The notes under the pieces were generated by a model that was not told where the DNA came from, made no database searches, and saw nothing but the letters and a program-made list of their open reading frames with translations. The position numbers and the translations under genes are program-made. DNA of 64,000 nt from Clytia hemisphaerica (taxonomy: Eukaryota > Cnidaria > Hydrozoa > Leptothecata > Clytiidae): positions 310,001-374,000 of the forward strand of contig CACVBU010000567.1 in NCBI GenBank assembly GCA_902728285.1, in the 5' to 3' direction. Below are positions 4,801-64,000 of this stretch, in pieces; position 1 is the first letter of the stretch; every line of letters starts with the position of its first letter.

Positions 4801-7800
4801 TAAAATAGAGTCGTCAAAATCCAAATTTTCATCTAATTCCCAGTGTCTATCAACACCGGTCAGGTAGCTCAGTCGGTAGAGCATACGCCTTCCAATCCAA
4901 TGGCTGTGGGTTCGATCCCGGGTCACCAAACTCAGCGAATGAGTAGCTTAGATTGGGTAATCTGATCCAAGCGGTAAGTTATTGGGAGCTGAGAGTAGGT
5001 GTGGCGCTCCACCTCAGCATTGGACCTCCCAGGTCTAGCGCAAATAGAAAAGGGGACAGCCATCAGATGATATAGTTACTTACTTACCTTACTTGCCAAC
5101 ACAAAGACAAACTTCCGCTAGCCTTTTGTGTTAAAAGAAGCGACACAGACACAACATTTGGTATATCCCAACAAGCGCAAACCTTCTTTTAGAATCATTA
5201 ACAAAAGCACAAGCCCACAACTCAGATCAGCTTTTTCCTCAAAAAGCAAAAACCATCACTAGATCTTTTTCTATACGAGAATTCTAAGAGAACTCTAACC
5301 TATTCTAACCTCTATTCAGTTTTTTTTCTTAACAGACTAGAATTCGAAGTTAATGTCTATCGGCACAAGCACAACCCTCCGTTCCTCTTTTTTTAACAGA
5401 CTAGAACCTAATAAGGTCTATCGGCACAAGACACAAACCTCCGTTCAGCTTTTTTCTTCTCCTCCTCATCTTCGCCATTTTCAACTTTTTGTTTGTTCCT
5501 GAATAGATCCTCTTTTTGTGGTGCTGATACTTCTGTGTCTTTCTTCAATTTCTTGCGAGCTATCGATGCTGAATCTAACTGAAAAGAGTATAGTCTTTTC
5601 GTAAGTGAGAAGCAAACGTTGTAAAGGTCCGAAAAGCGTTAAAATGTTTTCCTTTTCTAAATAGTTTGGCCATCTAAGCAAGCCTTATGTCCTTATATGT
5701 AGTTTCTTCTCATAAAAGAAAACGTGTATCCAGTATTTCTGAAGCCCCAATACGACAAGTTAACTGAACGAGGAAGTCGCCAGCGTCAAAGTGGACGATT
5801 TAAAGTAAAAAGTAAAAAGTAAAGAGCTTGAGCTAAAATTCCTTTTTTAAAGGTAAATCCATGAGTTTTATAAAGTCCGAGGCCTCATTCATTCATTCAT
5901 TCATTCATTGTGCGTACCTCATTCATTCATTCATAAGCAAAACATTTACCTCTACCTCGATTTTAGCATTGTCCAAATCATTGAGCATAACGATAAAAAT
6001 TCATCTGCGATACTAACCGTTTTGGGAGACCGTTATTCTAGTCTTTTACTCTAACTGCTCTCCTAGCTCTTTTTGTTTTTGTTTTTCATTTCTGTTAGTA
6101 ATTATCATAGTAATAGTTAGTTTTTTTTCTCCATTTATTAGTTTATTGTTAGCTTATTTTGGGTTCCTTCCCCAGGGCGGTATGATCTGGTGGTCCTTTT
6201 GCGGGAAGTTAGAAACCTTTAGTTTTGTACTATTTGTTCATGTACTATAGATACTATAGATAAAAAAAACATTTACCTGTTGGTCTTTCCGTTTGAGAGT
6301 ATTTTCATCAACGGCCGGTAGTGCACTCAATTTCTTATCTTCTTTCAAAACATCATGACTGCTTTTGATGCCAAAGTCCTGAAGATTAGAAGAATGTAAA
6401 ACAGCCTATTAGAATCTCGTTTAGTTTAACCTCCCAAAAAATGCTACACTCATTATTTTTCATTCAAGACAACATAAAGAAGTTATAACAAAATGTGCCA
6501 AAATTAGTTCTCGCCAAAATTAAATTTTTGTATTTTGCAAAAATAGTCCCTAAAATTCATCAAAATTGCTGAAAATAATGCAATATAGGTCAGATTGATT
6601 AAGCCTGCCATCCGCCAAAATAGGTTCTCACCAATATAAAAAACTTCCAAGATTTTTCATTAATGTAACTTCCTTGAGAGTAGTTTCCATATGGTAGCGA
6701 AAAAGCGCTAGGTAGAAGACTCGGACGAACTAAAATGACCTTGTAAATTGATTATCTACCGTAACTTGGTCTAATTCCAACACCCTTTTTATCAGCTGAA
6801 ATTTATAGAAAGGTTGAAACTGTTTTTCTTTGCTTAGTGGTCAGAGAGAAATAATCCTTTTTCAATCAGTGATTCAAGCTTTCATTTTACTCCTTTCTCT
6901 AAAGAAGGTAGTCGGAATTAGACGAGGGATGTCGATATTAGACCAACTTACGTTATTGATCGAACAAAGTAATTTCCCCTTTATTAAATTATTCAAACTT
7001 CAGTGAGATAATGAGTTTTAAGAATTCTCTTTAAGACTTTTACTTTACAAAACTTTCTATATTACAAAAACAAATTTTTTAATACATTTAATACTGTAAT
7101 ACATTACTTCAAATAAACGCACGTTTAAATAAAGCTCCCCCCCCCAAGCGTCCCTAAATCAAAGGAAAAATCTTCAATAACCACCCACTTCAAATAAAGC
7201 TTTCCCCTAAGAGGGGCGTTTAGTTGAAACAAGTAGCTGTAAAGAAGTGTTATATGAAAAAAAAACACTTTAGTTCTATGTCAGTAATTACATTCTTTTA
7301 GTATTGGGCTTTTCCAGAAAAAATTTGAATATGGTGGGTGGAGGATATAACAATTTTCAGTGATTTACCCCCCGGACAAGCATCAGTTGAACCCCCCCAC
7401 CCGGATAACCCAAATTACCCTCGAACAGAGCAAATTTACCTCCCGGACAAGGCAAATTTTGATGACTTTTCGCTACCCCCGGAAAATATATCATCCACCC
7501 CCCATGTACGGACATTTTCTGAAAGAGCCCATTCCAACTAATTCTGACCCATTTCGTCATCCCTAAAAATGATACTTTTATACTCGAAGAACGGAAAAGG
7601 CAAAATATGGTTTCCTTTGTTTCCTATTATTTCAAATGCCCGCTTTGAACAAATGCTTCTCCTAAAAACACAAAAATTTTTATAAACACTCGGGCAGTTG
7701 TTCAAAGTAAGACAAGACCAAATTAATTTGTTGTTCTGTCTCTCTGTTTTTTTTCCAAAATCAAAAAATAATAATATTGAATTCGCATTTTATTTTTATT

Positions 7801-10800
7801 ACACCGACCGACCGACCGACCGACCGACCGACCGACCGACCGACCGACCGACCGACCGACCCCGTAGAACAACAAATTAAATTTGTCTAGCCTAATACAG
7901 CATTTAAAATTATCTTAAAAGAAAGTCAAGATAATACAATAAATTAAAATTTTTCCCAATTTAGCACTTATCAGTATAATAAGAAATATAGCTAGTGCTA
8001 GTGTTCTGTAGAAAAAAAAAAGTTCCAGAAAATGTTTCTGGGATCACTATGATAAAAAATGTACGTTTGAGTTTTCAAATTACTTTTCTTCTTCAGGGGC
8101 CTGTCAGGGTACATGAGATAATATGAAATTACGAAGCCAAGAAAATATCATAAATCGTTTATCATCAATAGAAGAATACAGGAAGATTTTGTCAAGAACC
8201 AAATTTGCTGCCACCACGCTCGTCAGATTATGTCTTTTGATGATGGCAGATGTGATGAAGTTGAGATAGTCGTTCAAAATCGACAATAATTTGAATTTCG
8301 GTGGAACTTCTTCGATTTTGGAAATCTTTTCTAATGTACTTTCCAATACAGGCTTAATCTCTTTAAGCCATTCGCTATCTTTGTTGTAATGATTGCAATG
8401 ATCTCTGATGTAAATTGCTGCATATAATTTAAACATTTTTGAAAAGGCACTGTCAATGGATTGGAAATTTAACATATCGAGCTCGGACCGGAGTACAAAA
8501 GGTATTTGGTAGTGCTTAATTTCTTTCCAGAAAGGAATTTCAAATTCCAAATTTCTCTTTGCAATTATACGCGATAGTTTGGAACCATCAAAATCTGCAG
8601 AAAGTTCCAAAAGGTCCTTGAAATTCAAGCTAGAGACAACATAATATACATCTTTCTTAGATATACAGTCCGCGGTAAAATAAGCTTTGAGGAAACTTCT
8701 GCAAAATTCTTTGTCTTGAATGTTTTTCTGCCTTTTTACGAGATCCTCGATAACAAAATTAATGATGCTTTCCAACAGCGAAAGTTGCTCACGTTTTGAA
8801 AAGGAGTTTACGTGTGTTGCTTGTGAACAAATTCTAAATGTCCTTTCCAACAAACGCGAAAGTTCAAGAAGCCAATCGGTTTCCCCGAAATGTAAAAAAT
8901 GATCTACAATATATTCTCCAAAGTATATCTTGAAATTTTGCATAAAAAGATTGTTATTGGGTGAAAGGAAAAACACCTGAAAATCCAGCCCCAAAAATCT
9001 CTCCAAAAAATCAAAGTAGTTCAATAGACCAGACTTACTCTTTTCAAATAAATCTACTAATGATTTGAAGCTTAGAAAACGGCGAAGCTTGTTGTTAGTT
9101 TGTTCAATGTTCTTGCAATCACAGAAAACATGCATGATAATTTTTTTGAGGAATGAAATAGCTTTTAAAGTTTTTGGGCTGAAATCCTCTTTTGACGATT
9201 GCTCCTCCACAAGATCATCAACGATAAATGTCAGAAAATCATGTAAAACTTTAGAGATAGATTCTGCAGAAAAGTTCTTTTCATCGAATTCGGTCAAGTC
9301 TTTAAGAGTAATTTTAAGAATGTATAAAATATTCGTAAGAATATCTCGCCGTGCAAAATGTTTCACATGGTCAATTATGTAATTCATCGTCAAAACCTTA
9401 AACTGGCTTAAAAGTGCGCTTTCTTCCACTGAATGCTGAAGTAGGTTGGCAATCTCGAAATATGCTAAAGTTTGAGAAGAATCGTTGTTTTGGCCAACGA
9501 TAATAAGCTGTGTCGTACATCGCATAGAAATATTACATTCGTGGTGTTCAAGGTTTTCTCGTGCCGTTTGATCGTTTTCGTAAATAACCACAGGACATTC
9601 GAAACCTGATACGTAATTTCGCGATGTAACTAAAATATTTCCTTGGCTTAGGTAGTCGCATGGGTTGTTATTTTCATCAAAATCATTACGTGATAAATGG
9701 TAGAATTTGATTGGTTCACTTGGCGGTATGGGAAATTCGATTGTATCTGTGACGATTAACAATCCTTTCTTTCTTAGCGAGCTTGCTTTAAATACAGCCT
9801 CGCCGATAGAGGACACGTAAATAGGAGGATCACCAGTAAGAAAGTTAACTGGAGTTTCCGAAACACCTTGCACATATTTATAGAGTTGAGTTTCAGCTAT
9901 ATTTTTCGTTTTCTCCACTATTTCCTTTGTATTCCTTAGGTTTGTGTGTAGTTGAATGACTTCAAAACCCTTGAAATTGGTTTTAATAGAAACGAAAACT
10001 TTTGCTTTGGCACGATAAGATGAGTTCGGCGCAATCCAACACACAGGAAAATTGTCCAGCCATTTTAGGTCAATTTCCTTTTCATAGTTTTCGCTCCATT
10101 CGTCAAACACGATAGCTTTGAAATGTCGCCTTATCCACGGAATCTTTAGACTTTCCTACAAAAAAAAAAAGTTCATTCATGTTAGATTCTCGTTCTATTT
10201 TTCTTGTTCTTCGGCCGAGGCAATACCTTTGAGTAAGAGATTGCTTTGCTTTGTCATCATTCATGATATGCACTAATGCAAATTGTCTTCCACGGAACCA
10301 ACAGCTGATTGGTTGAAAGTGACGTATTGACTGATTTTATGTCACTTACAACCAATCAGCTATTGGGTCTGTGATATAAAGTCAGAAGACATTGCAATGT
10401 TGCATATCAAGAATAGAACATTGGTTGAAAAACATTTTAATGGATTTTCAGTGCAGCAAAAAAAACTTACAATTGCTGATTTACCAGTAACAACAGTAAT
10501 CCCTTGCTGCTCGAGTTCAGTTTTTCGGTCGTGATACAACAATCCCTCTCCGTTACAAACAACATACAATATTCTACCTTTATACAAATCATCTTTACTT
10601 AAAATCATGACTTTCTCTCTTAATAAGAAAGTCTTTCCTGTCCCAAAACCAGCCATGAATATGATTTTATTGAAGCATGGGTCGTTACTGCTTATAACAG
10701 GGAGTTGTTGTTTTGAGTAGAAAACTATGTTACGCGCAGTAGAGAGTGAATCGATTGCATTCCTAACATAGTCAAATAAGTATGATGTAGTGATAGGTTT

Positions 10801-13800
10801 CGGTTTGTCTTTGGTCGATACGTGGATTGAAAAGACGATCATTTGAAGAATCTTTTTGAGTTGTTCTAAGGAGGTTTGGAGCGGTTGAGATGTTGAACAT
10901 TTATTGAAAACGTCTGAAAGCCATGTCTCTAAATCAGTATCTAAATCAATATAATAAGGATGATTCGAAAATTTGGTGTTGTTTTTTTCTACACATAGAA
11001 CAGGGACAAATGACCACCCTGGACCGAATTGGTCACCGAGTTGTTTCTCGAGTATTGAATGGTACTTGTGAGTTGTTCAAATGCTGTTGTGTTATTCGTT
11101 AATGTTCTTTTGACTTCAACGCCAATAATGAGCTTACGTGTCCACGAAAAGATGAGCATATCAAATTCTTGGTGTTTTTTACTAGTAACCTCTGTCATGA
11201 AATTAGGTGATGATAAAACGACAATATCTTGGAGGGTTTCATTGTTCTTAAGAGAGATTAACTTTTCGAATATTGAACGCTCAGTTTTTTCTCCACACTC
11301 ATTAAGGTTCAAATTGAAACAATAACTAAGTCTTGGGTCTTGTGGCGGTAGCTTAGCAATTCTTTTATCGACCTTAGCCTTCTTATTCTTTCCTACTAAG
11401 ATATTCAAGAGAGGTGACTTTGGTTTGATATTGTCCAGCGCAGGAATAAATTGCGAAGATGTCGTGGAAGGCAAATTCAATCTTTGAATGTCGTGCTCTT
11501 GGGTCACAAGGTACATCACTTTCGCATTAAAGATCCATTTATCATATTCTGTTTGATTGATTTCAGTAGTAGTTTGAGTTTGAAGAAATTGATCCAAGTC
11601 TTTGGTAAACCAATCGTCTGGTGATTGTTCCTTGAGGTTATTAAGTACCTTTTTCAGCTGACCCATTATGTTAGGATCTAAGTTTGCAGTTGCACATTCT
11701 CTTGAATATTGGCTGCACATAAACTCTTCCGGTATGAAGATTGGATCATGCCGGTTTGAATCGAACAAGAAAGTTTCTCCATATTCTCTCTTCAAAAGTT
11801 CTTCAGCTGCTAGAAAAGGGTCTTGAAACGTTTGGCCATTACCAAGATCGAATTGTTTGATTTGACCGGTCAATACTGCTTTTTGGTTGCCTATTGATCC
11901 TGCAATTTGTTGGTGTAATGAAGTCGATGGTGTACATTTTGTATGATCAATAACTCGAGATGCAAGACTGTTTATTTCTTGTTCTAGGGTAGCCATGGTT
12001 ACTTCATTGCTTTCTACATTCTTGTTTGATTTAGATAATTTCAATTACATGCTGGAAGATAAAATTCATAATACTAAAAATTTGATTCCCTAAAAGACAT
12101 AGCCAAAAAAATCTGGCTCTGACATTTTTTCTGTTATACTGTTCGCGAGAGAGCCAGATTACACCTACTACACACTCCTTCTCATGACTCTAAGAAGTGT
12201 CTTTAAATTATAAACTTTATGTTAAATTTTTTTTTGTCTTTTCATCTCTCAAACATTTTTTGTCTTTTGACACGATTCTGGGTATGAATTTCCTAAAGTC
12301 ATTACGCGTAAGATAATTGCTTTCTTGAGTTTTCTAAGCCAATCAAAATACAAGAACAGAAATATGTGCTAGGTCTCACCGTGCGACCATAGTCACAGCA
12401 GTTGAAACAAATAATGGGTAATCTTTGCTGAGTAGATCATAGTAGTTTGGTACCGGCAATCCTGCATAGCGCGAAGCGAGGCGGCGAGGAAATGGACCTG
12501 ATCGATCAAATTGCCGGCGCTAAACAGTGGTCAGCTTATTTTAAAGATGGCGCGTTATTTTACTTCAGCTGAAGACGAAGAAGTTCTATCTAGTGTTTTA
12601 TTTAGGATATCTGTGTTTTGATGACGGCTCTTTATCCGACACTGACAAATTTTGGGCTCACGCCAGTGGTAAACAGCGGTAAATAACGCCACAACTAACA
12701 AAAATTGCTTATATAAACTCTTCTCAAACTTAATATAAATATTGGCATTAACCTAGTCTACACAATAGACAGCTCCAGGCTTTTATGCGTTACTCTTGGT
12801 CTATAGGCACTGCTATAGGCGGCCACTAGTAACCCCCACCGGGAAATGCTTATTAGGTTTAAACACAATAGACAACTTTCACAAAAGATGTTTATCAATA
12901 GAGATTTCAAAAATAGAATGTTTAAAACACAGCTGATTGGTTTAGGTTTCGAAACTCTCTATAGTTTCATTAAAACCTTAGTGCGCATGCGATTTATCCG
13001 GAGAATTTCAATATTCAAAACAAGAGCAGTGCTCATATCCCGAATAGTAGGAGTTTTACGCTCGAAACGGAGGAAGATATGATGTAGCCTACTTTACCGC
13101 CCTCGGCCTCGTTTTCGTGTAAATATCACTTTTTAAAGCGTCTTTGAGAGATCAGGTTGCTGTATAACACAGGTTACAAGTTACTGGTTAGTGATGACAG
13201 GTACAGCTCTAATTAATTCAATTCAAAAGGAAAATATCTCAAAAGCTAAAAAAATTTATCTATACAATACTCCGCCTCTATTTCATTCACTTAAAACCAT
13301 TTCAAACGTGACAACTCAACCACGTGCTTTTGTCGATCTTTCATATCTTACTGTTTGTATAGAACAGACCTTTCAAAATCAAAATGGATCATTGGGGTTT
13401 GGCGAACCTTTTTTAAGTCAAAAAACATTTCTTGAAAATGTGTTGATACCCCCTGGAAAATGGCAAACTATGCAAAAAACCCTATGAATATTTCTTTTTA
13501 TACCTTAAGCTGGTTTTAGCTTAAATTTACCCCAAATTTTTTTTTTTTCAAAATCGGGATCCCTCACATTTTGGGTACTACCATTGCACATTTTTCAGTG
13601 GTCTAGTCCAAAGATAGGGTAGATCGTCAACTACCATTTTTAGCATGATGTCAAAAATCTCAAAGTGTAGTATTTTTTTGTGAAAATTTTATCTATTGTA
13701 AGACATTTCGCGCAATTTTTAACCTCCTTGATTAAAAACCCAGCATTCCTCAGGGAGTCTTTGATTCTCACTCAAGCGAAAAATGAGTAAAAATGGCATT

Positions 13801-16800
13801 TTTGGCCATTTTAAGGCCATGAAAATCCAGGAAAAGGTCAAAATGGTTTCTAAATGGTGTGTTGTGCGCAGATTTGTAATACTTTCTGCGCAGGTTTGTA
13901 ATACTTCTCTGCGCAGATTTGTAATTTGGAATTGATATTTTCATTGGTAACCAAATTCTATTCTGCGAACAAAATGCATTAAAAAGACTTAGAAAATAAT
14001 ACCCAACTAAAGTTGTGATTATTGAGCACATCGAATAAATAATCAATTAATATTTCTTTTGTAAGCAGAGCTTTTATAAGAAATTTATCTGGTAATATAA
14101 AAATTGTTTATGAGAATAGCACGGACATAATTTTTTATGAGAACTGCTTTTATAAGAAACTAATCAATAACTCGTAAAATAAAAATTATTTCTTGTCGGT
14201 AATTGTTTATTTCGAAGTAAACAAGGTACGAAGAATAACATGAACATGTACATTTTTTATAAGAACTGCTTTTATAAGAAACTAATCAATAAATCGTAAA
14301 ATAAAAATAATTTCTTGTCGGTAATTGTTTATTTCGAAGTGAGCAAGGTACGAAGAATAACATTAACATATTTTTTATAAGCACTGCTTTTATAAGAAAC
14401 TAACCAATAACTCGTAAAATAAAAATAATTTCTTGTCGGTAACTGTTTATTTCAAAGTAAAAAAGGTGCGAAGAATAACATGAACGTATTCATTTTTTAT
14501 AAGAACTGCTTTTATAAGAAACTAATCAATAACTCGTAAAATAAAAATTATTTCTTGTCGGTAATTGTTTATTTCGAAGTAAACAAGGTACGAAGAATAA
14601 CATGAACATGTACATTTTTTATAAGAACTGCTTTTATAAGAAACTAATCAATAAATCGTAAAATAAAAATAATTTCTTGTCGGTAATTGTTTATTTCGAA
14701 GTGAGCAAGGTACGAAGAATAACATTAACATATTTTTTATAAGCACTGCTTTTATAAGAAACTAACCAATAACTCGTAAAATAAAAATTATTTCTTGTCG
14801 GTAACTGTTTATTTCGAAGTAAACAAGGTACGAAGAATAACATGAACATGTTTATTTTTATAAGAACTTTGTTACAAAGTATAGAAATGTGCCCTCCCAG
14901 TTATTACCATAATGGCTTTATGGCAACTCCTGAACTTGGGCACAGGGTGTACGGGATGCACTTTGTTATGAAAAAACAATTAATGATATAAAAATATTTT
15001 TGTCAACATTTTAACATTTCAAGATGTAGTACCAAAATTGATGAACAATTCATAAGATGATATGATAAGAAAATATTGATTTGCTCTAAAACCACCTTCT
15101 ACCCAGCTAGGAAACCTGTCCCCTCTGACTGGATTTCTTTTATAACCTTTCATAGCACCTACATTACATTCCAGCATAATATCTCAAGTAGAAAATTATT
15201 GGAACAATTTCCATTAGATTAAAATATATTGATTCGTTTCTTATAATAGCTCAAAAACATTGTGGCTTTTCATACATTAATAAGGAATGTAACCAACAAT
15301 TTAAACAATATATTTCGACATTTTTTGTCATCATCAGGTCTAAAAACAAATAAAATCAGTTTAAAAACAGATTAAAAACAAACAAACTTTATACACGATA
15401 TAATATGTACATACTCTCTCTCTCATAACACTCTCTCTATACACATATTGACAAATTAAAAGTAAAACGAATAATGTCGCTTAAAATTGCAAGCAATCCC
15501 AAGGGACATTTCCCGTCATGACACTAATTAAAATTTTATTATTAATGTGTGGCTTTTAAATTCATCCTTTGTGTTGAGTGATGGTCTCAGTTCTTTTATG
15601 TACAACGCTTCTTTAATGAGTAATTGTCTTTGATACTTTGCTCTTGCAAGAATTACGACATCGTTTTCCATTGTTATTTTTACGTCACATGCTTTACAAT
15701 GAATTCCCACTGGAGTTGACGGTTTTGCGTGCTCTTTAATTCGGGTAGTTAGATGCAGAACTGACTGTCCGACATAGCGCGAATCACATCGCGGACACGA
15801 AATCATATACACTACACTGCTTTGAAGAGCTTTCTCAATAGGTGGTTTCAATGGAGGAAGTACGGTTTTTAACTTTCGTAAAGTTAAGACGGTTTTACAC
15901 GGGGCTTGCATTCGTTTTAACGTACACTTAAACTTGTCCGTCAATTTTCCACGATATTGAAGGAAAAAGAGCTTTTCTTCCTCCTCGATGGATTCTTCTT
16001 CCACATTTACAACTTCCGGCTGGATTATTGAATTTAAACATTTCTCAATAATTGGATCGTAGAACGCAGGTGGATATTGGTTATTTTCCAATATCTTTTT
16101 TGCCTTCTCAAGACTTTGGTGAATGTTTTTCCATGTATTACATGCACGAAAAATTCGATGTACCATACCAGCTACTACTGAACGTTTGTAAGTAATGGGA
16201 GCTAACGCGTGGAAATTCATAAGTAACCCAGTGTCGGTCTCTTTACTGTACCAAGTAGATGTCAGGTCTCCATCTGGGCTACGTTGAATAAGCATGTCAA
16301 GAAATGGTAAGGAACGGCCCTTTTCGTATTCAATCGTGAATTTAAGCGATTGGTGTAGATTGTTTATCTCCTCCAATTTTTCGTTGATCTTATCTGCTCT
16401 AATGTTACGTAAGTAGTCATCCATATACCTGGCAAACAAACAAGCATCATCCTTGACATGACAATCAAATCAGTCGACTCCAGTGGGAATTCATTGTAAA
16501 GCATGTGACGTAAAAATAACAATGGAAAACGATGTCGTAATTCTTGCAAGAGCAAAGTATCAAAGACAATTACTCATTAAAGAAGCGTTGTACATAAAAG
16601 AACTGAGACCATCACTCAACACAAAGGATGAATTTAAAAGCCACACATTAATAATAAAATTTTAATTAGTGTCATGACGGGAAATGTCCCTTGGGATTGC
16701 TTGCAATTTTAAGCGACATTATTCGTTTTACTTTTAATTTGTCAATATGTGTATAGAGAGAGTGTTACGAGAGAGAGAGTATGTACATATTATATCGTGT

Positions 16801-25800: not shown

Positions 25801-28800
25801 ACATAGATATTGTTCGTTATAAGTGTTGGCAAAAATTTGCAGCTGATAAAGCGGTAATTGGTGCACTCATAGTGTACCATGCGGTGGCATTTTCGGCATT
25901 TTAGACGGTTTTGGTCATCGTCAGAATTATAATTGGATAAAATATACAAAAATAGTGAGCAGTGCCGTAGCTACCGGGGGGTAGGTATCTTTAAGAGTGA
26001 TTTTTTTCATGAAATGGAGTATTTTACCTTTAAATTTTGCCTTTTTTCTAATTATTTTAGTTTTTTGAGTGTCTTTTTAGCCAATCTAGAGCTCTAGATT
26101 TCAAAATCCCCCCTCCCCTCGGCCCAAACCATGGTTGCCTCTCACGATGTCACTGGACTTATGCTCCCCCTCCATCAGCATGCTTCCTACGGCACTGGGA
26201 GTAAGAATTAATAAGATTCAATTATATTTTCATTTGAAGATTCGAAATAGATAGATCATATTTCTATCAAAAGAAAACTTTATTGACGATTGACTTTTAT
26301 AAGAGCAAGTCATTTAATTATTGTCAGCAAATCATATTACATTATAATATTGGTCTGTGTCAAGTCTCCTTAGAGACTTTCTGAAAAGAAAATATGAACG
26401 CTAATCTATTCAAGTCACTTCCTTGTATCAGCGGAAGTTATAAATTAGTCGGGGACGTTCTGGACATTAGATTAACGTTGAAACAACATTGTGTGCCAGC
26501 TGGGAGAGAAAGTTATAAATCTTATTTCAGAAGCATTTCGTTGATTTGTGCAGTAGCAATCGTTCAGAACGGAATTATCGAAACACACGGCTCAAGAATA
26601 AATCCGTACGTTACACCTTTGTAGGGAATTATGAAGAATTTACAGTTGTGTGTTTTACTATCCTGTTTGGTGTATAATGCTTACTGTTATCCATTAGCAG
26701 GTACAAGACAGTTCTAATTATTATGCTTTTTTGATCATTTTTTTCCATGCTCTTCCATTTTTTCTGAAGGTAACTAACTTAGAAATTAGCTATACGTTTT
26801 TTTATAAGAACATCCAAAATTTTTGAAGCCATTGATGTTCTTAACTTTTTGAGTTTTAAGCCTAAGAATGTTCTTAGCATGTTCTTATTTTCACCATTTC
26901 ATGAGCATTTATGCCTATTTTCTTAATGAAATCGTGTGTTTTAGAGTCCGCAAGGCCTTAAAATGTTCTTAACTTGTTCGTAGCATTATGGCCATCGAAG
27001 CCTTATGTTCTTATAATATTGTTTGTTCTTATAAAAAATGTGTAATGGATGTAAACAGTGGAGTCCCCACAGCGCAAGCCCAGAGGGGGGGGCGTAAATT
27101 TGTTCGAGTTATGGAAAATAACTAACTAAATCTAAAACTATCATTTCACCATTTTTCTTAACCAGATTTGAAGGACGACGAGCAGGTCATTGAGAGAGAT
27201 TCACCATCCGTTCAAAATGCAATGCAACCAGACAATAGCGCACAAAAAGACGAACAACAACAAGGTAAAACACAAAAAGATGAAGAGGAAAAACCAAACA
27301 AAGTTCCTGTAAATCTCCTCAACGACAGCGCTGATGAATCGAACGAGCCGCTCAAAGTTCTTGCTAAAGACGAAAAACCCACTGGGGAAAAGCCAATCAA
27401 ATTACTGCAAAAAGACGAGAAAGAAAACTCAAATGACCACAAAGATGATAAAGACAGTACCGGAAATGATGCTCAAGATGTTGTTGCTGCTGATAGTTCG
27501 AACGGACAGAACGATACCCCAAATCAGACGAATGACAAAAAAGAATCATCAAATTTAGATAAAGCGAATTCAAGTGAGCAAGACATGCCAACTGTTGCCA
27601 AGAAAACACCAGAAAACAAAGCTGATGGAGTTGAAACAAACCAAGATGAATCCATTTCAGATGAAATTGACATCAACAGTGAGGAGGGAGATGTTGCCCA
27701 ACAAGATGCATTTGAAATCAATAACACTGGTGAAGAATTGACTAAGGACGAAAAAGAAACAATCGAAAATGATGCTGAACCAATAATAGATAATTCTGTT
27801 GACAACTCTGAAGAGCAAAATGATGATGAGAACACAAATGATTCTCAGGGCAAATCTGTGGAAAATTCCAATGATCCAAAGGAGAATTCGTTTGAAAACA
27901 CAAAGGATTCTACGGACAATTCCTTGGAAAACAACACAGAGGATCCCTTCGAAAACAACGAGGATGATCCCTTGAGAAATGACGAGAGTGATTCCTTCGC
28001 AAGCAACGAGAATTCCTTGAGCAATGACGAGGATAATTCACTCAAAAAGAACGACGATCTCTTGAGCAATGACGAGGGCGATTCCTTCGAAAGTGACGAA
28101 GAAGTTGATGATGTGATGAGAAGTGCTGACGAAGAAACAGATAATATCGAAGATGAGAGCGAGAGAAGTGTGAAAGATGAAGAAGAGACAAATTCGGAAA
28201 ATGACATAGAAGAGAAGGACGAACAGGAGGAGAAGGATTTAGATATGAGTGAGCAACAAGAAGAAGAGGAAGCTTCTCTTGAATACGAAGAGAAGGATCA
28301 AAATGACGAATATCTTAATGATGAAGAGAAGGATTTAGATGACGAAGATATTAGTGAGCAACAACAAGAGGAGCAGCAAAATAGGGAAGATGAATCTTCT
28401 CTTGACAACGAAGATGAGGAATATGTGACTGAACAACAAGATAATGAAAACGAAGACGAAGATGAAAATAAGGGCGAAGAGTTAGAACAAGACCAAGAAC
28501 AAAACGATGGTGGGAACATTCAAGTGATGGATGTCGACGAAGTTGCCAATTCAAATCAAAATGAAAAAGTAGTGGATAATGATGCGGAAATTCAAAATAG
28601 TCCGATGGATTCTACAGTGGAAAGATTCCATGAGGACTAAAATAATCTATTAAGCTTTCTTGAACATTTTGACAGAACATTGATCAATAATAACAATTAA
28701 ATTGAAAATCCCACTAACTTGAATAAAATGGGTTTTAGGGTAAATTTTAATTTAATCTATAGCATGATTAATTAGACTAATTATTCTCATGATTGTGTAA

Positions 28801-46655: not shown

Positions 46656-47187
46656 AGCCTGAACCTTTCATGTCAAAAAAGTCCCGAAAACACTGAAAAC
46701 ACTTTTACCTGAAACACCTTTTCTGAACCTTTCATGGTTTTCTGGGTGTTTTTGGCAAAAACATTTTACCAGAAACACCTTACCTCTCGAGGTGGTGTGT
46801 TTCCAGCATTTCCTGTGTTCCTGGTATTTCCATAAATCAACTCTCAATTTTCTCCACTAAACTCAGGCAAAAATGCCATTTCCCAGAAACACCACCATTT
46901 TGTGAACCATTCAGTCTTTTTCCTGGTGTTCCTGGTATTTTTCAAGACGATTTTGAAGCTCTTGCAGTGTCCTGACTGAACCAATCAGATAAAAATCGGG
47001 TTGAAAATCCGGTTAGAAAATCGGGAAAAAATCGGGAAAATTAGCCAGTCGGGACTTTTTTAACAGTCGGCTTCAACAGGACATTCGGTGTTTTTAAAAA
47101 CTTTGAAAACTGAACCATTCGTGTTCAAAAGTGTTTTCTGCAAACCAGGTAAGCAATGTGTTTTTAAAGACATGAAAGGTTCAGGCT
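46656..47187. mobile_element. MITE of 532 bp inserted in the first LINE
   Basis: Ends AGCCTGAACCTTTCATGTC are a perfect 19-base inverted repeat. TGTTG flanks both sides (46651-46655 and 47188-47192). Removing the element and one TGTTG restores the reading frame of the host LINE. Confidence 0.85.
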
Positions 47188-49368
47188 TGTTGACTGCGAT
47201 GAATTCAAATCGCTTGCAGCCAACACTCCATCTAAATTTTCTGCCTTTCACCTGAACATTGCTTCACTTTCAAAACATTTTGACGACCTTGAAGATTTGC
47301 TTGCCCTCCTCAATTCTAAATTTAGTGTCATAGGGATTTCAGAAACCAAAAGCCTTGTTGACACCGAAACAGAAAGTCCTCTCGAAAAAAAAGAGGACTT
47401 TGCTATACCAGGTTACGAAAAGTTTTTTACACCAACTGAATCTTCTAAAGGTGGAGTAGCCTTATATATTTCACACTCTTTCTCTTACAAACCTAGGACA
47501 GACCTAGACCAAGTTTGCTATTCTTCATGTAGTCTTGAATCATGCTTTGCTGAAATTATCCTACCAAACAGTACCAATATCATTGTTGGTACTATATATC
47601 GCCATCCAAAAATGGTTGGCTTCAATCAAGATTTTCTAAAACCTCTGCTTAGTAAAATTTCTTCTGAGAAAAAGCAACTCCTCCTTCTTGGAGACTTCAA
47701 TCTTAATCTTTTAAAATGCGAGGATGATTCAGAAATAATGTCCTTCATGGATATCCTCGATTCTAATCTTATACTTCCACAGATCCTTTTACCAACAAGA
47801 ATAACTGAGGACTCAAGGACTCTCATTGATAATATTATTTCTAGCCCATCTGATAATGGAACTGTATCTGGCAACATATGCTTTTCCATATCAGATCATC
47901 TCCCCCAGTTTTGTCTCTTTCCATCATTTGAAGGTAAGTTTCCCGGTGAAGATATTACTTTTTTTCAGCAAAACTGGTCTCGTTTCAACCGAGAAGAATT
48001 TATTCTGGATTTTCTTGAAGTTGATTGGGACACCCTTTTTTTGAGATTTGGTCATAATCCAGACTCCTGTTTCAATATTTTTAATGACAGAATGAAAGTA
48101 CTTGTAGAGAGACATCTACCCGCAGTCAAACTTACCAAACGTCAAGTTAGATCAAAAACAAAACCATGGATAACGCCAGGAATTTTGAAAACAATCAAAA
48201 AACGTGACCACTACCAAACAAAACACGCTAAGGCTAAAACTAAGGAGTCCAAAGATCGACTCTATGAATTATATCGTAGGTATCGAAATATGATAGTCAC
48301 TTTGACTAGACGTAGTAAAAAAAACCACTACATCAGATATTTTGATTTCCATTCTAAAAACTCTAGAAAAGTCTGGTCTGGTGTTCGCGATATAATCTCA
48401 ACAAGGGCTAACTCAGAATCACCCATTTCAATCATCACAGGTGACTCTTTGACATCAGATCCTGAGAAAGTAGCCAATTCCTTCAATGATTTTTTCACTA
48501 CTATAGCTGATTCTATTCGTGAAAAAATGCCGCCTTCTTACAATCACTTCAGCAGTTTCATGAAAGATCCAAATCTGCATTCCATCCTCTTAGCACCAAC
48601 CACTAATCAAGAAATTGCGAAGGTGATTGGCTCTTTCTCAATAAATAAAGCAAGTGGTCCTCATAGTATTCCTATAAAAATCCTTAAACTTTTAAGACTT
48701 GATATTTCTGTGCCAATATCGGCGCTGATAAACTACTCCTTTCTCAGTGGTATTTTTCCCTCTACTCTCAAAATATCCAAAGTTGTGCCTGTCTTCAAAC
48801 ACAAAGGTTCTCCCCTTGAAGTCTCTAATTATAGGCCAATTTCACTTTTATCTAACATTGAAAAAATTTTTGAGAAAGCGATGTACTCACGTCTTTCTGA
48901 TTTTCCTGAAAACCATAATCAAATCTACTCTCGACAATTTGGTTTTCGTAAGGCTCACTCTACTGAGCATACACTCATTAATATTGTCGAACGTATCCGA
49001 AACTATCTTGACAATGGTGGGTTTGCCTGTGGTGTATTTGTCGATCTACAAAAGGCTTTCGACACAGTTGATCACGAAATCTTACTTGAAAAACTCGATC
49101 ACTACGGAGTCAGAGGCATTGTTAATGACTGGTTCCGATCTTACCTCACTAACCGCTCCCAGTATGTTTCTCTTTCAGGCTCAAATTCCCTTTTAAAATC
49201 TATTAATCATGGAGTTCCTCAGGGTTCAGTCTTGGGTCCTCTGCTGTTCTTGTTGTATATAAACGATCTTCACCGCTGTATAAGAACCTCTGAAACATAT
49301 CATTTTGCTGATGATACTCATTTACTAAATTTTTCAAAAACTGTATGGAGTCTTTGTGGGAGGGTTAA

Positions 49369-52300
49369 TGATAATTCGTACAAGAAATCCCCTACCGGTA
49401 GGGTGTTTTCTAGCAATTTTTGAGACACCACTCTCAGAAACCCCACCCACCAAATGAGAAACAAGAATTATTTCATGTTATTAGTAATATGGCAGAGCTC
49501 TTTTTCTATCAAACAGTTAGTTCTTATCTAGGGTGGTCACCTCAGGGTCTTTCATCAAAAATTGCATTTTTTTCAAAAAATAGTCAAAAAATTGATTTTC
49601 TAAAATAAAATGTATTTTTTTCAAATATACTAGCCTGTAGCTATTTTCTCTCAATGTGCTGATACTTCAAGGTTATTATGACAATATTTCCAGAGAAGAA
49701 AGTTTCAGCTACAGTGTAACTTAGAAAAATAGCTTTTGAAGTAGAGTATAAAACCCCCTACCGGTAGGGGGTTTTCTATACAGGGTAGGAGCAGAATGAT
49801 TTCACTAATACTGACCTAAGTAAGTGCTTTTAAATGATATCTTTTGATTTTTCTCATCATACTTAACTAATCCTAGCATTACAAAGCAAAATTTACTAGT
49901 AAGATGTTCTTTTTTTCTTTTTTTTGAGATTCCTGCATAAATATTGAATTTTAAGTCATCATCTTTTAGCTATATCCAAAAATAATGACCCAATAAATTC
50001 AGTGGTCCTATTCATAGTAATATACTAGATTGTGGTATCTAAGGCAGGTAAGATACACTGAAAAACTAAAGGAAAAAGCTGAATGGTCAGCTGTAATTAT
50101 CAGGATAGGGTCTACTTAAGAAAAATACCTACCGGTAGGGGGTAACTTTTTCCAACCTAAGTTGGCACAAAGCTTCATAAAAAATCAAATTGAATATGAG
50201 TGAAGCAGTTTTTTGGTTAATTTTATCATTATCCATAATAACAAGTCTCATTTTACATCTACAGCCAGTTACAGTGAAGTATTTTCTTGATCTTAAGGGG
50301 TTTTATCACAAAAATATCAAATTTGCCTTGGACCTTTCAAGGTTAATGATACTATAAACCAGATTAAAGGGGTTTTATTAATTCATGATATAAGAAAATT
50401 GAATCCCAAGTGAGATTTAGCTAACTTGTAACTACAGAACCTCTCATTATTCCTGTTGAAAGTCTAAGAAGAGTCATCATAGAAAACCCCCTACCGGTAG
50501 GGGGTAAAAAGATTAGGCTTTAGAATGAGAGAATCAGCTTGTTTTTCCCAGAAATCTTCTAAGAAAGTGATGTTAGGGTGGTAAAAAGGCCTTCTGTACA
50601 TTCTTAGAGTACTTTGAGGTTATGCCTTCACCAAATCAAAAGAAGCATGCTGAATAATGAGTTAAATTAAAAGATTTTCTCCCATTTTAAGTCTATAGCA
50701 ATACAGATTTATATGATACTATTATGTCAATAACTTTAGGCATATTTTATGACTTTTTTTCTCTTGAAATCATGAATTTTTCGTACCAAGTTTCATTAGC
50801 TTTTTGAGAGAGTAATGTGTAATGTTATGAGGGGTGAAAAAAATAGGGAAGAGACATAGTGTGCAGAGGGGTCTGAACCCCCCCATTAATATTTCATCCC
50901 CCCCTATAAAGGTATCCCCCCTATTTTTAAATTTTTTTGATCCCGCACCATTTACAGGGGTCCGAGCCCCCAGCATAAAATTTGTACTCCCAGTATTGGG
51001 GAAGAATTTTGATGAATGAAATATATTATTCAGTGTGAATTCGTACCAATAGTCAATGAACTTGAAAACACTAGCAAATAAACAGTAAACTAATAATTTT
51101 TTAACCAAAAAGTTACTATCCCCCCCATTTTTATTTGATCCCCCCCTATAAGCTCAAACCCCCCATTTTAACTGGAAAATTGCCCATCCCCCCCTATAAA
51201 GCCTTCCTTGAAAACTCGAATCCCCCCCCTTAAAAAAGGGGGGGTTCATACTATGAGAGAATTCATGTACTTGAATATTTTTCATGCTCTTCTTGGCCAC
51301 AAGCACAAGCTTTATATTTTAGGAAAATAGGAAATTATAAATAATCAAAAATTAAGGATTAGTAATAGAATCAATAGAAAAAGAATAAGATTATAAAAAA
51401 TGGACACAGTAAAATTTGGAAGAACAAAAATCAAAGTTGGGGATTGTGTATCAGTTTCCAACAATTATTTTGGCAATGGATATTTGCAATCAATAACGGA
51501 TGCAGGGCTTGATCATCAACGTATCTATGGACGTGTGGCAAGTATTTGTGAAGGAAACAGGAATTTTGCTGTAAAGTGGGATTTTGATCAAGAGATAACT
51601 TACTCTATGTCCCTTGAAAAGGTCCAATACGAACAGTTTGATACACCTTTACAAGCCAAGCCAAAAACTGTTATTACTGCTGAAGACTTTGAGGGCTTGG
51701 CTGGTGATCAAGAACAATGTAGTGCTAGTAAAGCAGCAGAGACACATGCCCTCCTCTATGAGGATTTTGCTGGAGCCATGGATGAAAAGACAGCTGATAA
51801 AGAAAATCTGGATGCTACTACATACACCCTTTTTGTTGATTCTGGGAAAACAAGAAAAAACTGCTTGCTTGGGAGACTTATTTCCTCTGCTGATGATAGC
51901 CTAGTTCATGGTAAAAAGCTAACTGAGAAACGCTCTAAGTTCTTCATAACTAAAGTACTTGATAACACTTGGAAAGGCTTTGATGCTGATTTCCATACTG
52001 CTGGAGCTTTTGTTGCTTGGGATAAAGATAAATATTTCTCAGAAAGTATTAAACCAACTAATGAAGCAAAGACTTCTAATGAGACCAAATCCAGCAACAA
52101 AGGAAAACATAAAGCAGTAAAAAGAACAACAAAACCTGTAGTCAAAGAACATGATGGATCTGATAAAGAGAATGGCTCAGAAAGCATTCCTAAAAAGAAG
52201 GCTAAACCAAGAAAAGTAAGGAAAGTACCTGTCAAAGTAACTGTGGGAAAAAAGGCAGCAGAAAAACTTACAGAAAGAAATAAAAAGGTCTATGAAGCAG

Positions 52301-54987
52301 ATAACGAATTCGATTATGAAGAGGAAGTTGAAGAGCAGGAATAAGAGACTCCTGTTGACCAGGTTGAGGTGAAGAAAGAGGAGGAGAAAAAGCTGTGGAA
52401 AACAGCAGGTTGGAAGATTAATCCAAGGACAGTCTCACTTCCAAGAGCACAACTGCTAGACCCAGCATCTGCAATTTGGAATCAGGACTCCTTTCTAGAG
52501 TACTTTTTGACTTTCTTCCCAGTTGACTATACTAGGAATGTAATGCTTCCAGCAACAAATAAAGTTGCTAAAGAAAATGGCTGGGAGAAGCCATTCAGTT
52601 TTGAGGAATTTGTTCACTTCCTTGGCCTGCTCTATATGATGGAAGTAGTGCATCTTCCTGAAAGAAGAATGTACTGGCGAAAAGAAGCTGATTGTCTATT
52701 CCCTGCTTTGAACTTTGGGAAGATAATGGATCTCCATCGATTTGAGGAATTTGTAAATGTATGGCAGCTATCTGATTCAGATGACATTGATAAGCAAGTA
52801 TTAGAATTCATTGATGCTGTTAACACCCATCTCAAGGGAGCAATGAAAGCAGGGGATGTATTGTGCATGGATGAGTCTATGATTAAGGCTTACCACAGAG
52901 GGCTTAATGGAAAGATGAAGATTATAAGAAAACCTCGACCGATTGGCAATGAATTAAAAACCGTCAGCGATGCCTCCACTAATATTGTGCTTCATATGGA
53001 ACTCCATGAACCAAAGGAAGACATGGCAGACAAGGAATATGTCAAAGAGTTAGGAGCAACAGCAGCCTGCAATCTCCGCATTACAAATTATTGGAAAGGT
53101 AATATTATTGAGTATAATTCAATAAAAATCACTTTTTAGGTTCTGGCAGGATTGTTGTAGGAGATTCATGGTTTGGATCAGTCAAAACTTGTGTTGAATT
53201 GTGGAATGTCAATGGCCTGTATTCCAACCTATTGGTCAAAACAGCACACAAACGATACCCCCGCCTTCTTCTGCGTGAAACCAAAATCACAAGAGGGGAA
53301 TGGATTTCAAAAGCAGCCGAGATTGATGGAGTTGGTGTGATGGCTACACGCTTTCTTGATCTGCAAGAAAAGCTATTTATATCTTCCTGCTCCACAACAT
53401 TGAGTGGCCCCCCAAGGGTCACAAAGTATCATGGCAATGTTCCTCGACCAATGGTTGCTTACGACTACTTGTCATCAAGCGCTAGTATAGATGTACACAA
53501 TCATTTTAGGACTGGCTCAACTGGATTAGAGGATGCTTGGCAGACTAAAAATGCCAACATGAGACAGGTTGCAGGTGTTATTGGCTTCCTGCTTACCAAT
53601 GCCTTTCTGGCTTATAAACATTTCCAAAAATCAGCAATAAAGCATTCACAGTTTAAAATAAATCTTGCCAATGCCATGACAAAGTTCAAAGAGACTGAAC
53701 AAAGGGCACGTCGCTTATCTTTAGATATGGTTGAGGTTGAGCCCAAAGTTCAGCGAGTGCATGTGCTTAGGCTGCTTGAAAAGCCAGTAAGTAAGGATGG
53801 CAAGAAAAACAGCAGATTTCAAAAAAACTGCTTCTATTGTCAACACAACCCAATGCAAATGCCAATTGAGAGTAAGACGAGTTATCACTGTGATGGTTGT
53901 GCTGGACTTAATGGGCAGAAAGTCTATCCTTTGTGTAACCCAAGTACTGGGAGAAATTGTTATGAGCTTCACATTTCTCACGGCTTACCTGTGAAGCGTC
54001 GATTTTCACGCAAATAACTTTATTTTAGATATTATCCAAAACATTGAAATTTTAGACTCTTTTGCCTAGGCATTGCTGTATTTTTACCATATATTTTACC
54101 TTAGTTCATTTACATTATTTACATTGACATTATTGTAGGAACCATTTTACCATAGGAAACTAGTTCATTTATTTGTTTAAGCCTATTGCGGACAACAAAA
54201 TCCAAATTATGAAAAATACCTACCGGTAGGGGTTTTTCTATCATGAACTCTCTTAGCCCTTAAGGAATGATCTGAAGGAATGGAAAAGTCTTAAAACTCA
54301 ATAAAATTGTTAAATACTTCAGAGGGTATGTAAATAAATCTTAAAATATGACAGTTCAAAGTATTTCTTAGTGCGAGTGAAAATCCCCTACCGGTAGGGG
54401 TTTTTCACAAATAGAGCCTTTTCGGTTTTTGTTCCAGATATTTCAGATTTACATGAAGTTTCAATGTATCATTCGACTCCTACATATTGTAGCAATTCAT
54501 GGTATAATGCTTTTTAGCTGTGTGGGAATATTCTAGTCATACTGAATTTAGCTAGCAACAGGTTTTGATTTTTTGGCTGTCCGACAGGGCAAAATTAGGA
54601 AAAATATTTTTTTAGGAGAACAGGCATGTATTTTTACCCTGCTTTTGGTGATCCAATATATATCAGACACTTTTCAACCAAAATTACTGTTCTAACTTAC
54701 CACAACTTCTTTTCCATAATAAATTATTACTTGTTGCTTTTTTGACAAATTTTGGTATTTTTGAATAAAACTGATGGGGGACCACCAGAGTTTTTTTAGA
54801 CCCTGCAATTTCTCATTGAAAATAATTGTTATTTTCCATTCTGCAGGGGTATAAGCTTAGAGAATGTAGCAAAAGTTATATTTCAGACACAAGAAATAAG
54901 GGTGTGGAAGTCTTTAAATGAGGCATGGTGAAAACACCCTACTGGTAGGTATTAATACCTACCGGTAGGGGGTTGTACGAATTATCA
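49369..54987 (+). mobile_element. Complete piggyBac-type transposon inserted in the first LINE
   Basis: TTAA flanks both ends (49365-49368 and 54988-54991). The terminal repeat TGATAATTCGTACAA (15 bases) is perfect and inverted, but does not begin with the CCC common in piggyBac. Next to it and at internal sites lies the palindrome CCCCTACCGGTAGGGG: 49389, 49754, 50128 and 50487 on the left; 54219, 54385, 54937 (variant) and 54958 on the right. None occurs within the transposase. 49420-51390 and 54018-54930 hold no gene; 50860-51260 is C-rich (CCCCCCTATAAA words) and may be a further small insertion. Confidence 0.9.
51400..54017 (+). pseudogene. piggyBac transposase with N-terminal extension, one in-frame stop
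   Basis: One frame runs from the ATG at 51400 to 53098, interrupted only by a TAA at 52342-52344. A 41-base GT-AG intron (53099-53139) joins it to 53140-54017. The first 315 residues are an extension: GDCVSVSNNYF, IYGRVASICEG and FAVKWDFDQ suggest a small beta-barrel (Tudor/chromo-like) fold, followed by a Lys-rich region. The transposase core has WNQDSFLEYFLTFFPVDY, then the catalytic Asp residues in LCMDESMIKAYHRG, VVGDSWFGS and SASIDVHNHF. The C-terminus is a cysteine-rich domain (CFYCQHN, YHCDGCAG, LCNPSTGRNCYELH). A start downstream of the stop could still give a core protein; otherwise the stop ends activity. Confidence 0.85.
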
Positions 54988-56072: not shown

Positions 56073-59000
56073 ATGAGCACAAGTGCAACACTTCAACCAG
56101 GGGGGGGGTCGGTAGTAAAATCTCAGACATAATGACGTTTACTACGGTGGTGGTGTAACGAAAAATCAAAAAATTTTTTTACTACCCAGGGTAGTTAAAT
56201 ACTAAAATGGGTGGTATCTATGTGTTAAATGTTGAAAAATTTTTACTACCTGGGTAGTTAAAGCTGGTAAAATTAGCAAATTTTAGCTATTTTTGTAATT
56301 CTTTTAATTTTTTGGATGACTTTTCTGAAAGAATCTGAAAATTTTTATAATTTGAAAAAATTTTCTGTTGGAAAGTTGTTTGCTGCAAACAAAAAAATTT
56401 CGAAATTTTTTGTCAAAATAAAAAAGACTTTAATGCTAAGGGCAAAACATTAATTTTTGCACTAAGTGAAAAATGTGTCACAGAAATAATCATTTTTTAG
56501 CTTTTTTTGTAAAATCAGTCCAAAAAGCAACCAAAAAATAGGTGGTCTCCATGACAAATTGTCCCAAAAACTTTTACTACCAGGGTAGTAAAATACCTCT
56601 TCCAAGAGTCTGGGTGGTGGTACGTAAAAATTTGTAAAAATCCTTTTACTACTCATATATGTCTGAGATTTTACTACCGACCCCCCCCTGCTTCAACAAC
56701 TACTATTGATAATCAGTGGATCGGTCGAATTAAACCCTGGACCAGCTTCGAAAGTGAAATATCCATGTGGCGAATGTCGAAAAGCTGTCACTACAGGTGC
56801 TTCCATCGCTTGTGACCTTTGTAATCAATGGTTTCACCGCAAATGTTCGTCAATGAGCGACCAAATTTACAATTGTCATGTTAACGAGGAGAGTTTGGAG
56901 TGGCTTTGTCCAGGTTGTGCACTGGCAGATATTTCGAACAGTCTCTTTGACACCTCAATCTCTTCTTGCAGTTCCGCTTCAAGTATTGAAAACAATCTTC
57001 CAAAGAAAAAAGTCAGTAAGCTTCGAATTGTTATCTGTAACTTTCAAAGTATTTACAACAAAAATGAAGAACTTTCAAATTATCTCATTACAAATGATAT
57101 AGACATTTTGATTGGGACTGAAACACACCTATCTTGTAACATTCTTAACTCTGAGCTTATCCCAAAAACAGGCTATCAAATTGTTCATCGGTGTGACCGT
57201 AATGATGGGTACGGAGGCGTTATCATCATCGCAAAGGAATCTTTGATCACTGAACCCATAAAGGCTTCTAACAGTCATCAAATAATCGCTGTAAAAGTGG
57301 AGACATTCCAGAAGCCCATAATCATCTCATCTTGCTATCGATCACCAAACAGCTCAATTCAGGAAAACAATGACCTTGTCCAATCAATAAACAACCTGTC
57401 CAAAAAATTCAAATCAAACCCTCAGTTTATCGGAGGAGATTTCAATCTACCAGATGTTGATTGGGAGTCATACACAATTACTGGATCTCAATACCCTCGA
57501 GCACTGAATGAGCAATATCTTGAGGCATTTGACATAAACAGTCTTTCCCAAGCTGTCAATTTTCCAACCAGACAAAAATCTATCTTAGACCTACTCATTA
57601 CCAACAGACCGTCCTTCATCGAAAGCTGCAGACCAACACCAGGTTTTGGAGATCACCAGACAGCTGTTCTTGCTGACGTTTATTGCCACCCTAAAAGACA
57701 GCGACCTGTACAACGAAAAATCTACCTCTGGAACCGTGCTAACTTCGACCAGATGAAGCAAGATGTAAGACAAGCGTCAGACCAATTCTTGGAAAACGAA
57801 ACAACCGATACACCGATCAATAACTTGTGGTTAAAATTCAAAAATATCATTACCACTGCTCAAGAAAGCAATGTACCGTGCAAAAATTCAACTAAACGAT
57901 ACAACCAACGGTGGTTTAACCAATCATGTAGACGTGCTGTTCGAAAAAAGCAAAGATTATATAATAGATACAAACGCACAAAGCAATCAGCTGACTGGAA
58001 CAAATACATAAAAGCTGCAAAGAAAGCAAGATTGACTTGTAAACAAACTTGTGATAAATTTATCAACGACAATTTTTTATCAGAACACAAATCAAATCCG
58101 AAAAAGTTCTACAGTTACATCAAATCGAAAAAGCAGGATAATATCGGAATCACTTCTTTGCTCTCAAATGGAAATACTTTTACTGATGACACTCAAATTG
58201 CAAAAATCCTCAATAATCAATTTCTGAGTGTTTTTTCAGAAGATGACGGCCGAACACCAGATATAAAAGGAAATACCTGTCCACCCATCAGTGAATTAGA
58301 AATAACACAAAATGGTGTTCAAAAATTACTTTCAGAGCTCAACCCCAGCAAAGCTAATGGACCAGATCAAATTTCCACCAGAATTTTGAAGGAGTGTGCT
58401 GATATAATAAGTAAACCCCTTACTCTCATCTTTCAAGCTTCGCTGAAGCAATCAAAAATTCCAGATGACTGGCGCAAAGCAACCATTACTCCGCTATATA
58501 AAGGCAACAACAAAAGCAGATCAAACCCTGAAAGCTACCGCCCTGTGAGCCTAACATCTGTACTATGTAAAACACTCGAACACATAATTCACAGTCACAT
58601 AATCAACCATTTAGAGCAGCAAAACATCCTCACTGACCGACAACATGGATTTAGAAAGAAACGATCCTGTGAGACACAATTAGTAAAAACTGTTAATGAT
58701 CTAGTCAAGATATTGAATGAAAAAGGGCAAACTGATGCTATACTTTTGGACTTCAGTAAAGCCTTCGACAAAGTTTGTCACCGCAAGTTACTTTTAAAGC
58801 TAAGCTTCTATGGAATCAAAACAACTTGTTGACTTGGATAGAGGATTTTCTCAGTAACCGAACCCAAAAAGTACTCGTTAGAGGCGTAGAATCACCAGAG
58901 GGAAAAGTAACATCCGGAGTCCCACAAGGATCGGTACTGGGACCCCTGCTGTTTTTAGTATATATAAATGACATATCATTAGCAGTCACATCCTCAGAGA

Positions 59001-63789: not shown

Positions 63790-64000
63790 GGTATTTCTTT
63801 CGATAGCTAAATGTTTCTAATGCTCCGCGCCACTGGATACATCATAGGGAGAATGACAGTAAATACTGTCTAAAGAGGTCAACCACCCCATGAGGCAAAA
63901 ATAAAACACTGCAAGAAGCCAACCTATGCAGAGTGTGCAGTACCCAACTAACTTGGGCAAAATCCCTTTAGCCTGGAGGCCAAACGGACAGATAGGAGAA
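63790..64000 (-). other. Presumed leader of the RTE-like LINE
   Basis: No frame, no clear boundary; the element may extend past the window. Confidence 0.35.

Follow-up and report, generated by a model that had tools for sequence, protein, structure and literature searches.

The 64,000-nucleotide stretch of the Clytia hemisphaerica genome analysed here, referred to below as the window, carries a gene for a putative nuclease-helicase on its minus strand (11996-8104; ATG at 11996, stop at 8104-8106). The encoded order is an N-terminal family-specific domain, a predicted PD-(D/E)xK nuclease of the NERD/HSDR_N type and a compact superfamily 1A (SF1A) helicase like PcrA and UvrD; in the family as a whole, one to five tandem helical repeats usually follow. 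The window gene, whose frame is broken, belongs to a very large and poorly known family. We give an even chance to a reading in which this family has expanded in its lineage and its members are effectors with a variable tail that act in defence against viruses or transposons. The initial annotation of this DNA had proposed a nuclease joined to an SF1 helicase from the motifs GEKTER, QEFDMLIF, GVEVKR, GFGTGKT, VFDEW, SGFECPVVIY and MRCTTQLIIV. Each of these lies on the minus strand of 8104-11996, and the fusion itself is upheld by invariant catalytic residues, together with profile matches that are weak but agree with one another. The gene has the following features; copies elsewhere in the genome are named after their contigs (e.g., C513).

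11337..11996, minus strand: N-terminal family-specific domain, residues 1-220, conserved across 27 paralogues
11070..11324, minus strand: nuclease, part ahead of the frame break, residues 225-309; E239, E277, D279, E294, K296 and Q308 kept in 27 of 27 copies
11068..11069, minus strand: frame break, a one-base shift at the meeting point of two frames
10469..11067, minus strand: remaining nuclease, linker, helicase Q-motif and Walker A in the second frame, aligned with the C513 copy
10630..10650, minus strand: Walker A, GFGTGKT; G454 and K455 invariant in 27 of 27
10156..10468, minus strand: GT-AG intron, donor GTAAGT, acceptor TTTTTTTTTTTGTAG
8104..10155, minus strand: last exon (exon 3 in our searches) with helicase motifs II-VI and C-terminal repeats; open frame of 683 amino acids, stop at 8104-8106
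10099..10104, minus strand: helicase motif II, DE of VFDEW; D and E invariant in 15 of 15
9931..9942, minus strand: helicase motif IV, NLRN; N, R and N invariant in 15 of 15; aligns to NYRSTK of PcrA
9592..9609, minus strand: helicase motif V, SGFECP (family form SGFEWP); G and F invariant in 15 of 15
9511..9522, minus strand: helicase motif VI, RCTT; R, C and T invariant in 15 of 15
9178..9402, minus strand: C-terminal helical repeat 1, a seed of the repeat profile, which matches copies in 11 of 12 other genes
8713..8934, minus strand: C-terminal helical repeat 2, a seed of the repeat profile
8212..8433, minus strand: C-terminal helical repeat 3, a seed of the repeat profile

Nuclease and helicase domains

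The first exons were aligned for the 27 open copies among the 30 best-matching loci, while the other approximately 80 loci lie outside this alignment. Residues G235, E239, H275, E277, D279, E294, K296 and Q308 are invariant in all 27. The order E...D...ExK...Q is the pattern of PD-(D/E)xK nucleases, and it is present in every one of these copies. As these catalytic residues are invariant, membership of the PD-(D/E)xK superfamily is a well-supported prediction; NERD as the family within it is borderline. Trimmed nuclease regions from 20 copies (of 35) matched HSDR_N_2 (15 copies, best 2.8e-5), DUF4268 (9), NERD (8, best 7.4e-5), HSDR_N (3) and PDDEXK_4 (2) in Pfam at E ≤ 1, with 13.7 bits for NERD in the first trimmed region. 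When the full exon 1 was searched at E ≤ 0.005, seven of the 27 copies matched a nuclease family (HSDR_N_2 in four, DUF4268 in two, NERD in one), each below the cut-off of that family. The label NERD-like in the initial annotation is borderline: among full exons the best NERD score (PF08378, C806 copy) was 21.1 bits against a cut-off of 22.1, and the best trimmed region (7.4e-5) may come close to that cut-off; the best full-exon HSDR_N_2 score was 22.1 against 25. A NERD family search in six frames of the whole genome gave no matches, and the sole match in a PDB profile search with the nuclease was EndoMS at 0.38. The family shares the E...D...ExK...Q core and weak Pfam matches with NERD and HSDR_N/HSDR_N_2 nucleases, and differs from them in an HxExD motif and a GW...P tail that are peculiar to it, as well as in full exons that score below the cut-offs.

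The domain ahead of the nuclease is also recognisable among the paralogues, with invariant residues that include Q45, G52, N53, R70, E71, Y72, G73 and W129 in the 27 copies. The window piece that encodes it has no Pfam match, and at E ≤ 0.005 the domain matched DUF816 alone, in one of the 27 copies (18.3 bits against a cut-off of 24.6).

For the helicase, 15 joined regions were chosen for diversity out of 29, and motifs were named after the SF1A helicase scheme. The Walker GK, the DE of motif II, the N-x-R-N of motif IV, the GF of motif V and the RCT of motif VI are invariant in all 15, so each joined region has motifs I, II, IV, V and VI of the UvrD/PcrA type with their catalytic residues; WIAP stands in place of UvrD motif III. 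A profile of the joined helicases matched PcrA with an E-value of 4.2e-5 over the whole chain and an independent E-value of 0.0037 over the stretch of motifs II-IV, while the motif I stretch was in register with PcrA and not significant alone. DNA helicase II followed at 0.46-0.53, and we take the other chains (DnaI at 0.014 and weaker) as P-loop or chance matches. The UvrD-helicase cut-off of Pfam (23 bits) was not reached, as the first joined region scored 12.5 bits and the best full exon among the matches listed 17.5; in exon-level scans, the intron divides the helicase domain. With PcrA, UvrD and Rep, the protein thus has in common the Q-motif glutamine, Walker A, the DE of motif II, NxR in motif IV, G-F/L-E in motif V and the R of motif VI. 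It differs from these SF1A helicases in the WIAP motif, the added N-terminal nuclease and C-terminal repeats, and the UvrD-helicase score below the cut-off. Searches of Pfam, PADLOC and PDB using the window pieces alone gave no result, and PADLOC profiles run on the window pieces and the joined protein gave one weak match in the P-loop region (RTasHel, E-value of 0.029), which falls short of placing the protein in a defence family.

State of the window copy

The frame that bears the ATG (11996-11070) ends in AFEQL, and the frame that bears the P-loop begins with KYHSILEKQL at 11067, offset by one base inside the nuclease. The C513 copy, whose identity to the window copy is 93% for exon 1 and 85% for exon 3, has an intact frame where the window copy breaks at 11068-11069. 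Exon 1 is open from the start to the P-loop in 27 of the 30 best-matching loci and broken in the window, C771 and C276. Because 27 of these 30 copies are open at the break site, the window copy has probably become a pseudogene recently, if the break does not stem from the assembly; as assembled, it would stop shortly past the break. A short intron in place of the break was rejected, since a GT..AG reading there would span only about 19 bases. The C513 copy is damaged too, as its final approximately 90 codons are found about 1.9 kb further on, past an insertion-like gap. Of the two-exon structure given in the initial annotation, the intron at 10156-10468 is borne out by its marks (GTAAGT donor, T-rich tract and TAG acceptor), but exon 1 is not a single open frame. 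The 3' end of the gene is adjoined by a perfect tandem array of the 4-base unit ACCG (14.8 copies, window 7803-7861).

Family size and duplication history

In the 417 Mb genome, the exon-3 search returned 69 matches and the exon-1 search 128. The latter merge into 110 loci on 77 contigs, and 84 of the loci span more than 850 nucleotides. A second search, with a distant member as query, returned 131 matches, from which only those without plain overlap entered the combined count of 113 loci on 78 contigs (merging gap of 2.5 kb) or 110 loci (gap of 5 kb). The match counts are lower bounds, with the best candidates alone scored; they include damaged copies, and a gene with a long intron may count twice. 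Several contigs carry multiple copies in the first merged count (six on C732, four each on C512 and C594). A tree of the 27 first exons contains both deep and recent splits. The place of the intron is common to the paralogues: 25 of 36 pieces have a GT[AG]AG donor near it, where chance would give 0.09 per piece, and 24 of 29 fit a lax acceptor pattern, for which chance would give 0.36. Copies on contigs C89, C668, C869, C512, C732 and C775, often several per contig, have an exon-1 match that is split near residues 198-212, and probably carry an extra intron.

The window and C513 copies also share most of the 2.5 kb past the stop, which would be expected of a segmental duplication, and their homology appears to reach upstream to approximately 330 bases ahead of the ATG. 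High-copy interspersed repeats lie in the window at 5954-6269 and 13865-14400. The first of these is present in the window copy and absent from the C513 copy, which fits a segmental duplication and is most simply explained by insertion after it.

C-terminal repeats and selection

The last exon of the window gene contains three helix-rich units (starting at residues 252, 408 and 575) that are 28-35% identical. We built a profile from these three repeats, whose own scores are therefore no evidence, and scanned 13 genes that were hand-picked for long last exons. The number of repeats, each of about 150 amino acids, ranged from zero to five. The C18 copy has five with a step of 146 residues, and its units 2 and 3 have 91% protein identity and 94.7% DNA identity. 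Among the 11 other hand-picked genes, ten have one to three repeat calls and one (C428) has none. This gives a total of 28 calls in 12 of the 13 genes, four of which are weak (second of C547+ at 0.01, C661 at 0.001, C714 at 5e-4 and second of C717 at 8e-5), compared with a best score of 0.015 among 13 reversed and 260 shuffled controls. The tail duplicates internally. Other C-terminal domains were sought with Pfam in six long last exons, where all matches were sub-threshold and judged to be chance (e.g., PP_kinase, 28.6 against 31, and Phage_holin_1, 21.6 against 22).

The pattern of substitution differs along the protein. Between the window and C513 copies, the nuclease core has no nonsynonymous and two synonymous changes in 85 codons. 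The 199 codons of exon 1 past the break have a nonsynonymous rate (dN) of 0.015 and a synonymous rate (dS) of 0.10, with a dN/dS of 0.15. The ratio rises to 0.37 in the helicase and 0.92 in the C-terminus, where 100-codon windows reach 1.9 on few changes. In nine further pairs, in which C93 and one C41 copy were each used twice, the dN/dS of the nuclease was 0.07-0.26, and the firmest values come from three diverged pairs (0.15, 0.16 and 0.18). For exon 3, dN/dS was 0.42 in C18/C409, 0.41 in C41, 0.72 in C428 and 0.29 in C895/C717, while C93/C170 had 0.06 in the helicase part and 0.44 in the later part. As dN/dS of the nuclease is low across pairs, this domain appears to be kept in many copies; the tail appears to change faster, and the data fit both relaxed and positive selection.

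Origin of the family

Lateral transfer, suggested earlier for this gene, found no support. Two scans that covered 84,980 genomes of bacteria and archaea (pattern hits: 598 and 306) and two that covered viral contigs (101 and 31), all of which can detect fairly close relatives only, yielded no confirmed relative. Nor did a scan of phages with exon 3 as the only query, a type of scan that misses distant relatives. In plasmids, tblastn with one nuclease and one helicase member gave E-values of about 5, which we judged to be chance. With no relative in the bacterial, archaeal, viral, phage or plasmid scans, we rejected a recent transfer from bacteria or phages; an ancient transfer is compatible with these null results because the methods miss distant relatives.

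Proposed function and alternatives

The layout of the protein follows from its motifs and the number of copies from the searches; an immune role is what we reasonably infer. The family looks more like defence genes than like a housekeeping gene, and its expansion and variable C-terminus strengthen the case for innate immunity. Nuclease-helicase fusions are common in bacterial defence. In such a role, the repeat tail would recognise a changing target, such as nucleic acid or nucleoprotein from viruses or transposons, the SF1 motor, driven by ATP, would load or move on a strand, the nuclease would cut it, and the family members would act as a parallel set of defence effectors. NERD nucleases fused to the BREX protein PglW and the Dnd protein DndF are described, in the relevant sections of two papers, as likely effectors (PMC12839542, PMC10853773). 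In these proteins a NERD nuclease is likewise joined to other modules as an effector, but according to the same sections the joined modules are kinase or other P-loop modules, and our searches found no sequence relative of them. Large immune-type expansions with variable architectures are described in marine invertebrates, for example the TRADD-N proteins, in which a section of the source links a large expansion and variable tails to immunity (PMC8195603). The family studied here differs from these in that no Death-like or TRADD-N domain is among the Pfam matches listed for it.

Possible, although we lean against it, is the more far-reaching version in which these proteins form an undescribed class of intracellular defence effectors in animals, with about 100 parallel nuclease-helicases whose fast-changing arrays of approximately 150-amino-acid repeats recognise viral or transposon nucleoprotein. 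Array-based recognition would then be as in immune receptors with leucine-rich repeat (LRR) or ankyrin arrays, but with a cutting enzyme and a motor in the same chain. Searches of an open library of 5.39 million papers listed no description of the family, which may have been described under another name. With its roughly 110 loci in one genome, its variable repeat tail and its weak Pfam matches, such a family would be a new type of effector in the innate immunity or genome defence of animals, and its members are directly testable proteins.

Several results weigh against the reading of the family as defence effectors. On full exons, no copy exceeds the Pfam cut-off for a nuclease or SF1 family, and single-sequence AlphaFold2 gave unusable models of exon 1 up to the break (predicted local distance difference test, pLDDT, of 33.7) and of exon 3 (pLDDT of 39.0). 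Exon 1 is broken in three of the 30 best loci, among them the window copy, and several of the nine dN/dS values for the nuclease rest on very few changes (2 versus 2, 3 versus 3). The C-terminal dN/dS near 1 comes from a single pair in which both members are damaged and could be relaxed constraint, and exon-3 values in other pairs are lower (0.29-0.72). Neither expression nor a partner, a localisation or a fusion to an immune domain was observed for the family. Finally, one of the 27 exon-1 copies, C256, passes the cut-off of Bac_DnaA (PF00308) with 30.6 against 23 bits at residues 430-504.

This last match leads to an alternative that we regard as unlikely, namely that the domain with the P-loop is not a helicase but a signalling NTPase of the AAA+/STAND (DnaA-like) kind, and the protein a switch similar to NOD-like receptors (NLRs) with a nuclease as its effector. 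Bac_DnaA matched 13 of the 27 exon-1 copies at E ≤ 0.5, nSTAND_NTPase5 matched five of the 15 joined regions (best 7.9e-5), and a helical repeat tail would be suitable for a sensor. However, the top Bac_DnaA match spans profile positions 16-88 of 162, which is the P-loop part alone. Motifs IV, V and VI, whose arginines are invariant, are SF1 features, as is the alignment to PcrA along motifs II-IV. Where they could be placed, the Bac_DnaA and nSTAND matches appear to cover the P-loop part and to leave motifs IV-VI unexplained.

The kept catalytic motifs would also suit a nuclease-helicase of DNA repair or replication that works like DNA2 or RecB and was multiplied by chance, as a nuclease and an SF1 helicase on one chain is a layout of repair enzymes. 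We consider this quite unlikely: repair genes are mostly single-copy, and about 110 loci per genome with a variable repeat tail are unlike them, while no Dna2 or AAA_11/AAA_12 family is among the Pfam matches listed. In the animal protein DNA2, a PD-(D/E)xK nuclease precedes an SF1 helicase, the same order as in the window gene; here, however, the joined window protein has no Dna2 Pfam match, the family is large and the C-terminus is another one. Decidedly improbable, in our view, is that a mobile element, or a domesticated virus-like element, spread the copies, with the gene as its cargo or as one of its core genes. The copies are spread over 78 contigs, the window is rich in transposons, and there are weak Pfam matches to TTRAP (transposon-transfer assisting protein, E-value of 0.043) and, as given above, to the baculovirus protein DUF816. 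Against this stand the intron position common to the paralogues, the sequence past the stop that the window and C513 copies share as in a segmental duplication, and the searches, in which no viral or phage relative was confirmed and no transposase, reverse transcriptase or capsid family was among the Pfam matches listed for the family exons.

Other features of the window

Rfam and transfer RNA scans of the window returned nothing. An open frame at 27162-28640 (plus strand, 492 amino acids) is very acidic and of low complexity, with no Pfam match at E ≤ 0.01. A transposase with the Pfam domain DDE_Tnp_1_7, presumably of the piggyBac type, lies at 51397-54017 (plus strand); its sequence is divided between two frames at 52345-54017 and is preceded by an open frame. 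Three reverse transcriptases of the type without long terminal repeats (non-LTR), with endonuclease domains, are found at 47168-49423 (plus strand), 56667-59800 (plus strand) and 60745-63816 (minus strand). The element at 56667 starts with a PHD finger, in a Pfam scan that covered it apart from the frame at 58760-59800. A GIY-YIG domain, which we take to be as in Penelope-like elements, is encoded by an open frame at 15528-16469 (minus strand).

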